34,488 bases of DNA, from contig CANLKN010000036.1 of NCBI GenBank assembly GCA_947491475.1, positions 1-34,488 of the forward strand, in the 5' to 3' direction. Positions 31,535 through 32,298 of the stretch are shown here, in pieces (the first letter of the stretch is position 1; every line of letters starts with the position of its first letter). The position numbers and the translations under genes are program-made. Under the pieces are notes generated by a model. It saw only the letters and a program-made list of their open reading frames with translations. It was not told the DNA's origin and searched no databases. This DNA is from Akkermansiaceae bacterium (lineage in GTDB: Bacteria > Verrucomicrobiota > Verrucomicrobiia > Verrucomicrobiales > Akkermansiaceae).

Positions 31535-31681
31535 ATGGGCAATCCGTCCGCCCAAGTGGTCACCATCACCGACGAGAAGACCGCTACATTACACGGGCTG
31601 CCCGGGCAAAGTGCCATTTCAGCGGAGCGCAAGTCCGTGATTGCCGCGCATTGCCGTGCAGGCTACCACTGCAGCACGTGA
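31535..31681 (+). CDS. Possible 48-residue protein coupled to the BMC gene
   Basis: ATG 31535 opens a 48-codon frame ([20 protein letters not shown]...) ending at TGA 31679-31681. Its stop overlaps the GTG start of the BMC gene in the sequence GTGA, a classic coupling arrangement. Third codon positions are moderately GC-rich. I recognise no family, and the overlap could be chance. Confidence 0.35.
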
Positions 31682-32298
31682 GCGCACTGGGTTTCATCGA
31701 AGTTCCTTTTTTCAGCATCGCCGCCGTGGTGGCCGATGCGGTTGCCAAGACCAGCGGTGTGCGCATCCTCGGGTTCGACACCAGCGGCAGCGATGAAATT
31801 GTCATCCGCATTGCAGGCACCGTCTCCGAAGTGGCAGACGCCTTGGAGACTGCCGGGCAGACTGCCCGCAAGCTCGGTGTGAAATATCTCGGCACCCGCC
31901 TCTCCAAGCCCGACAGCCATTTTTCCGAACTCTACTCCGGCCCCAACGCCATCAATCCGCTATACGGCGGACGCGATCAATTCCTGCCCACCGATTTCCC
32001 CAACCCCGATCCAGCCATGTCCACCCAATCCCAAGCCCTCGGCATTCTCGAAACCCAAGGCCTCACCGCTATCCTCGAAGCCACTGATGCCATGCTCAAA
32101 ACCGCCGATGTGAAACTCGTCGGCAAAGAGAAAATCGGCGCTGCCTACGTGACCATCATCGTGCGCGGCGACGTGGCAGCTGTCACCGCAGCCGTGGCCG
32201 CCGGTGCCGCCGCCGCCGCGCCGCTGGGCAAGGTGATCGCCTCGCACGTCATCGCCCGGCCGCATGCCGAGATGCTTGCACTGCTGCCAAAGCCGTAA
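31678..32298 (+). CDS. Tandem BMC-domain microcompartment shell protein, with a possible internal start
   Basis: Shell proteins with BMC domains tile into the wall of bacterial microcompartments. From GTG 31678 the protein has 206 residues and two BMC domains. The first is divergent ([40 protein letters not shown]). A linker follows ([19 protein letters not shown]). The second is strongly PduA-like ([51 protein letters not shown]). The second domain begins at an in-frame ATG (32017, MSTQSQALG). Read alone it would be a 93-residue protein, the exact size of a single-domain hexamer shell protein. No pentamer protein or encapsulated enzyme is nearby. This may be a genuine BMC-T trimer protein, a fusion of two genes, or a gene giving two products. 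Confidence 0.88.

Follow-up and report, generated by a model that had tools for sequence, protein, structure and literature searches.

A tandem shell protein gene with a conserved internal methionine codon, predicted to encode two shell components, lies apart from a PVM-type microcompartment locus in an Akkermansiaceae genome

A gene for a protein with two bacterial microcompartment (BMC) domains lies by itself on a contig of an Akkermansiaceae bacterium, and an in-frame ATG within it could open a second, shorter shell protein. This raised the question of what such a gene does outside a full BMC locus and whether it has one product or two. An initial annotation, made from the sequence alone, had offered three readings: a true BMC-T, a recent fusion of two BMC-H genes by stop codon loss, or one gene from which tandem and single products both arise. 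The window, i.e., the whole 34,488-nucleotide stretch that was analyzed, corresponds to contig C36 of a 3.9-Mb genome that is 97% complete and is assembled in 182 contigs. Our main reading, to which we assign a probability of about 0.7, is that this is a satellite shell gene of a PVM-type compartment, that it gives both a tandem product and an internally initiated BMC-H product, and that it is tied to a metabolic branch with a tagged sugar-acid aldolase.

The open frame extends from 31651 to 32298, and alignment with relatives placed the start that is common to them at a GTG codon, giving a protein of 206 residues that lacks cysteine (Table 1). Matches to PF00936 were obtained for both halves (43.5 bits for the N half and 90.5 bits for the C half; gathering cut-off, 24.5), so the double-BMC gene of the initial annotation was confirmed. 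Its other observations on the sequence also held: the internal ATG is in frame and opens a complete BMC-H of 93 residues, the pore loop of the C half is KIGAA, and the TGA of a 48-codon frame overlaps the GTG start as GTGA. This short frame had no match in Pfam or NCBIfam and no relative in the 58 other genomes searched; it is probably not a conserved gene, and a role as a leader for coupling is possible. The linker segment at 31954-31995 lies between the domains and yet shows strong conservation except in the f9 and f92 genomes, while the last part of the linker is variable; the conserved segment may be a docking segment.

Table 1. Features of the tandem shell gene and the preceding frame (positions in the window)
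Feature	Position	Strand	Basis
Tandem BMC shell gene (N half, linker, C half); 206 aa, GTG start	31678..32298	+	PF00936 twice; start from alignment; 19 full-length relatives
N-terminal BMC domain and tail, diverged; end approximate	31678..31934	+	Mean family identity, 39%; groups with the 19 further N domains in one clade (FastTree, 0.97)
Interdomain linker	31935..32016	+	Alignments; pLDDT under 50 at residues 104-116
Nested 93-residue BMC-H frame; predicted internal translation start at ATG 32017	32017..32298	+	Met in 20/20; folding energy (dG) at the ATG, 0.0 kcal/mol; p = 0.004 for G content and for structure in the synonymous test
Leader of the predicted internal start; G-poor, C/A-rich, without Shine-Dalgarno sequence	31997..32016	+	2 G in 20 nt; composition similar to that at 55 Verrucomicrobiota BMC-H starts
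Short frame (48 codons) whose end overlaps the GTG start	31535..31681	+	Unmatched in Pfam and NCBIfam; none of 58 other genomes has a relative

Two fused, nonpermuted PF00936 domains are the arrangement that characterizes BMC-T^s proteins, and to this extent the reading as a true BMC-T was borne out. None of the NCBIfam BMC-T models was passed by the whole tandem protein, and an identity as CcmO or PduT was rejected, as the scores of 105.7 bits (CcmO; equivalog cut-off, 270) and 44.1 bits (PduT; cut-off, 250.3) were too low. This is a weak test because these cut-offs are strict and PduT-like proteins from three related genomes also fall below it, reaching 120 to 124 of 250.3 bits. In the PDB set, the best match of the whole protein was 6ner, an engineered BMC-H tandem, which ranked first because its two copies are both matched by the C half. 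Taken alone, the C half scored best with PduA (99.5 bits versus 79 and 82 bits for the two 6ner copies), with 61 to 63% identity in structure matches, and is classed on this comparison as a whole BMC-H close to PduA/EutM. An AF2 model of the monomer showed strands and helices arranged in one common order in the two halves and aligned to 6ner with a Z score of 22.2 over 177 residues (TM, 0.74 to 0.78), whereas whole PduT chains aligned badly (TM of about 0.4; rmsd near 16). The modeled domain order would therefore match the engineered tandem more than PduT; this is only a lead, because the model output states no confidence for the relative placement of the domains.

Relatives were sought among 59 related genomes, a wider contig collection, 387 genomes of the phylum, and 384 genomes of the class, which are overlapping samples. 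At least 19 full-length relatives were detected in 19 other genomes, all in Verrucomicrobiota, and the members were spread over nine family-level groups plus two further genomes; the two closest named relatives came from uncultured Verrucomicrobia subdivision 3. Family counts given below (n = 20) comprise the window gene and these 19 relatives. The phylum and class sets are samples, so that 20 is a minimum and further members or split forms may exist. In a tree that also contained BMC-H, PduT-like, CcmO-like, and Latescibacterota domains (the PduT, CcmO, and Latescibacterota labels having been assigned by eye), the 20 N domains formed one clade and the 20 C domains another, with support values, from FastTree only, of 0.97 and 0.99. 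The presence of a single clade for each half indicated one old fusion rather than a recent one. Mean identity within the family was 69% for the C half, and the C half was the more conserved in 190 of 190 pairs (N half values in Table 1). Slower change of the C half fits service in two products, and other constraints could have the same effect.

The comparison of split and fused forms that the initial annotation had proposed gave, besides the 19 fused relatives, a single N-half-only gene, which is excluded from the family counts. It lies behind its aldolase in genome G024 (L041:1675-2184) and diverges abruptly in the linker; it represents either a truncation or a chimeric contig, in an assembly that is 57% complete. 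No N-half-only gene was present among the matches listed from the 387-genome phylum search.

Several other tandem genes were separated from the family. Fused BMC-H pairs of Latescibacterota, Gemmatimonadota, and other groups have no internal Met and were used among the controls described below; membership in the same family was rejected, with three cases placed in the tree falling outside both clades. One set of these pairs (L054, L055, L058, L061, L063, L075, L082, L084, and L091), mostly from Latescibacterota and Gemmatimonadota, encodes proteins of about 186 residues without an internal Met, and several adjoin a single BMC-H or a PduL-like gene. PduS-PduT-like pairs that were matched in the search of the 59 relatives (G006, G018, G019, G025, G028, and G035) belong to a different tandem family; they were set apart by eye, with three PduT-like proteins and one PduS-like protein checked by profile. 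Such pairs, named by eye and with L043 checked by profile, were seen away from the PVM locus (L042, L043, L044, L045, L046, and L047) or adjoining it (L134). A plasmid search matched 47 records, and the best 15 of these 47 were PduA/EutM-like or distant BMC proteins.

Conservation of the internal Met was then compared with that of its surroundings. Each of the 20 full-length members has a Met codon 4 to 9 residues ahead of domain 2, at a distance that varies among members; in one of them (L247), a repeat has been inserted in the linker and the Met is still present. Of 91 control frames that also encode two BMC domains and come mainly from other phyla and families, only 3 had a Met in the stretch before domain 2. 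The 10 residues preceding the internal Met were nearly saturated, with 11% identity between clades. The AF2 model places the Met region in the disordered linker, and hence the Met has no obvious structural use there.

The RNA context of the internal ATG was examined by folding 40 nt around each codon and ranking the ATG against all codon positions of its own gene. In 20 of 20 genes, it fell within the least structured 11% of positions. For matching places in the 91 controls, scored position by position at five distances, 4, 6, 5, 6, and 8 frames reached this 11%. The mean folding energy at the internal starts (n = 20) was -1.6 kcal/mol compared to -9.9 kcal/mol for 48 other in-frame Met codons of the family (p = 6e-10). 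Similar values were detected at 55 BMC-H starts in Verrucomicrobiota loci (-1.57 versus -1.58 at the internal starts). The leaders of these 55 starts were C/A-rich with 4% G and mostly lacked a Shine-Dalgarno sequence, a composition that could be a useful marker for start calling. Leaders of the internal starts were less extreme, with 15% G.

No Shine-Dalgarno sequence was found at ATG 32017 of the window gene, and a motif of this type was detected at 1 of 20 internal starts versus 10 of 55 BMC-H starts. The missing motif counts for less because so few BMC-H starts carry one and because some Verrucomicrobiota are listed as Shine-Dalgarno-scarce (PMC10783764). Weak structure around the starts of genes without this motif has been described (PMC5397173).

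As the amino acids of a polar linker could by themselves produce such a context, synonymous codons were resampled. G content was below expectation in 17 of 20 genes and structure was weaker than expected in 17 of 20, the exceptions being L201, L245, and L246 for G and L204, L205, and L245 for structure. Fisher-combined p values over the 17 genes that are not near identical were 2e-10 for G and 2e-6 for structure; these values overstate independence because the family members are related. The combined values and a scan along the gene exclude the near-identical L052, L200, and L246, which were kept in the counts of 20. In the scan, the deviation peaked at the internal ATG (mean z of -2.0 for G and +1.25 for folding), and a weaker deviation persisted for about 24 codons downstream; the remainder stayed within about 0.6 for folding, and a G excess was present near the main start (z of +0.6 to +1.3). 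These results indicated that the mRNA around the internal ATG has unusually little structure and G, more so than the encoded amino acids would demand, and is much like that at real BMC-H starts in related genomes. The predicted internal start is conserved and has the sequence context of real starts, as would be expected of a PduB-like two-product gene, without a Shine-Dalgarno sequence.

The main competitor of the two-product reading is a plain tandem BMC-T with a single product, in which the internal Met and the G-poor context are relics of a fused BMC-H gene that have been kept by chance or for structural reasons. Tandem BMC-T proteins are an architecture that is already known (PMC8217296), the C half resembles a whole PduA/EutM-type protein, and the internal start has no Shine-Dalgarno sequence, all of which suit this explanation. 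It has to account, however, for a Met that has persisted in every member since a fusion old enough to be common to nine family-level groups and two genomes, next to flanks that are nearly saturated, for the rarity of such a Met in other tandem BMC frames, and for start-like context at synonymous sites. We consider it unlikely, although it retains more weight than the other alternatives. The initial annotation had held that an end-to-end match to an established BMC-T family, together with an unconserved ATG, would make this an ordinary trimer protein; instead, the ATG is conserved and no BMC-T cut-off was reached. Of the three readings first proposed, one gene with two products is best supported by the combination of a conserved Met and a start-like RNA context, and the prediction of dual products is well supported by comparison.

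The genomic setting was then considered. In the window, the gene stands without BMC-P pentamer genes or enzymes, as was first noted, and its neighbors proved to be of the expected types: upstream lies a gene of the alpha-amylase family (PF00128; 36 bits), and a murI-like gene (PF01177) is in convergent orientation. The isolation is local only. A search of the rest of the genome, as the initial annotation had advised, detected on contig C1 three BMC-H and three BMC-P genes with genes for DeoR, PduL (PF06130), acetate kinase (AckA), an aldehyde dehydrogenase (AldDH), and a class II aldolase (PF00596), so that the absence of a BMC locus from this genome was rejected. This combination in one locus is that of the PVM type, which has been described for fucose and rhamnose and has the PF00596 aldolase as its signature enzyme (PMC4207490). 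The C1 locus contains no tandem shell gene, and the window gene was the only one found in the genome. A satellite BMC locus has been defined as an incomplete shell set with a nonsatellite BMC locus elsewhere in the genome (PMC4207490), and this describes the tandem gene. BMC-P genes were present in 18 of 20 genomes with the tandem gene, which is evidence of co-occurrence only as regards a shared shell; none was found in G463 (74% complete) or G639 (91% complete). In G639, the tandem gene and a tagged aldolase are present.

In most of the family, the tandem gene is paired with an aldolase. A gene of the DHDPS/N-acetylneuraminate lyase family, recognized by a profile built from three such proteins, lies directly upstream in 10 of 20 members (L051, L052, L040, L200, L201, L202, L240, L241, L245, and L246), with a gap of up to 172 nt, and also precedes the N-half-only gene. 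PF00701 was checked for the L246 aldolase and for two copies in the window genome (L132 and L133). Genes in the clusters with the aldolase include, in L052, a zinc dehydrogenase, an enolase-family dehydratase, two short-chain dehydrogenases, and an L-fuconolactonase-like amidohydrolase; alpha-L-fucosidase genes (PF01120) are present in L051 and L200, and RhaT-like symporters are present in clusters L132 and L267. In L243, the tandem gene is on the same strand as a lactonase-like gene that runs off the contig; on a different contig of that genome, a lactonase-like gene precedes the aldolase. From PF00701 and the L-fuconolactonase-like, RhaT-like, and alpha-L-fucosidase neighbors, the predicted substrate of the aldolase would be 2-keto-3-deoxy-fuconate/rhamnonate, enzyme activities being assigned here at the family level and below NCBIfam cut-offs. 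Such an aldolase was present in 17 of the 20 genomes with a tandem gene, and the three lacking it are f9 genomes. BMC domains were present in 22 of the 59 relatives, and these 22 include all 7 genomes that carry this aldolase subfamily (chance, 5e-4); G005 has a broken aldolase fragment and no BMC match.

Examination of the aldolase C termini by eye indicated that 24 of 25 end in a variable linker followed by an amphipathic-looking motif (e.g., LDVDGIVEAVLRKM), similar to VDxIVxxVxxxL; the exception was that of G014. To the eye, these tails are similar in style to encapsulation peptides and to the ends of the PF00596 aldolase (tail) and AldDH (head) of the same genome. Tailed genes comprise L132:7694-8716 and L133:7431-8501 of the window genome and 22 other genes. 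In G448, the deoR gene next to pduL and BMC-H of the main locus is immediately followed by the aldolase gene, and in G463 the aldolase gene lies behind a deoR gene on a short contig. The tail and the position next to deoR make the DHDPS-family aldolases a good candidate for a second PVM cargo and possibly an unrecognized cargo family.

Five f9 members (L203 to L207) adjoin a different cluster, with an HpcH/HpaI-cupin fusion aldolase on which no tag was evident, and in three of them (L203, L204, and L206) the main BMC locus also adjoins. The L203 to L207 clusters also contain 2-hydroxyacid dehydrogenase and isomerase-like genes. The HpcH aldolase matched an NCBIfam model of the 2-keto-3-deoxy-rhamnonate type below its cut-off. 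As HpcH aldolases include this type, the theme common to both aldolase types may be cleavage of keto-deoxy acids.

In the window genome, an aldolase operon is present on contig C27 without a tandem gene and a second aldolase is on C82, so that shell gene and enzyme are apart. This separation raises the alternative that the gene is a decaying, relocated leftover that lost its aldolase partner and lies disused at the amylase/murI site. A sigma-70 scan detected no promoter-like site upstream of the gene, and the region of the main start is structured (dG, -8.7), as might be expected of such a remnant. Against this, the frame is intact, its C half is 74 to 85% identical to those of the twelve full-length relatives that do not belong to f9 or f92, both tagged aldolases persist in the genome, and three other members that are unlinked to an aldolase (L242, L244, and L247) are nevertheless intact. 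Disuse therefore appears quite improbable. A recent fusion within this genome of two BMC-H genes through stop codon loss, for which the complete BMC-H with its own start in the C half might speak, is very improbable, as all 19 full-length relatives found are fused, each half forms one clade, and the sole N-half-only gene, with its abrupt divergence in the linker, comes from a 57% complete assembly.

The preferred reading, that of a satellite shell gene with two products, suggests the following mechanism. Translation from GTG 31678 would give the 206-residue tandem protein, expected to form a trimeric pseudohexamer, and internal initiation at ATG 32017 on the same mRNA would give the 93-residue BMC-H, expected to form ordinary hexamers. 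We infer that both products are made and that they would join the PVM shell when a nonphosphorylative branch is active. The aldolase that accompanies most of the family lies amid genes of a predicted non-phosphorylative deoxy-sugar pathway, with a dehydrogenase, a lactonase, a dehydratase, and the aldolase itself. The tagged aldolase would be packed into the shell through its C-terminal encapsulation-peptide-like tail, and the tandem tile could act as a gate by supplying a pore suited to the presumed sugar-acid substrate. Lactaldehyde, a toxic product of the PVM route (PMC8857213), would be kept inside when released by the aldolase and would be handled by the resident aldehyde dehydrogenase and PduL.

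A more far-reaching version of this proposal is that the nested gene is an old and conserved design of Verrucomicrobiota. One cistron would give a trimeric BMC-T and also, through initiation at an internal site that has no Shine-Dalgarno sequence, a hexameric BMC-H, so that the ratio of the two is fixed. The design would specifically serve an encapsulated aldolase of the PF00701 (or HpcH) type, which would make the PVM compartment a dual-route organelle for the breakdown of phosphorylated and nonphosphorylated methylpentose. We put this forward tentatively, at somewhat less than even odds. If true, the production of two structurally different shell tiles from one gene would be a new answer to the problem of setting shell composition, and engineered compartments could adopt the design to hold BMC-T and BMC-H at a set ratio. 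A second aldolase cargo would widen PVM chemistry from sugar phosphates to sugar acids.

In the open literature that was searched, we recognized no description of this tandem gene, of an internal BMC-H start, or of an encapsulated PF00701 aldolase. PduB is a BMC-T protein. Its gene is the nearest precedent, as PduB and PduB' are two in-frame products of one shell gene region, PduB' having its own start codon (PMC9132943); PduB', however, loses only a 37-residue N-terminal extension, whereas the shorter product here would be a single-domain BMC-H and so a different tile. PduT and CcmO, which are BMC-T^s proteins, share the two tandem PF00936 domains; the tandem protein differs in scoring below their cut-offs, in its lack of cysteine, in keeping the internal Met, and in a model that is closer to 6ner than to PduT. 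The Planctomycetes/Verrucomicrobia PVM-type BMC corresponds to the C1 locus in having DeoR, PduL, AckA, AldDH, the class II aldolase, three BMC-H, and three BMC-P on one contig, and the accessible portion of its description (PMC4207490) mentions neither the tandem shell gene nor the tagged PF00701 aldolase. Satellite loci, including that of CcmK3/K4, likewise have a shell gene apart from the main locus, for which a tuning of permeability has been proposed (PMC8217296); the difference here is the link to a specific tagged aldolase. Finally, the Campylobacter jejuni Cj0481 locus, with a predicted L-fucose pathway, combines a dehydrogenase, a hydrolase, and a dehydratase with a DHDPS-family enzyme (PMC6946681), as do the clusters described here; these differ in the encapsulation-peptide-like tail of the aldolase and in the presence of a microcompartment in the genome.
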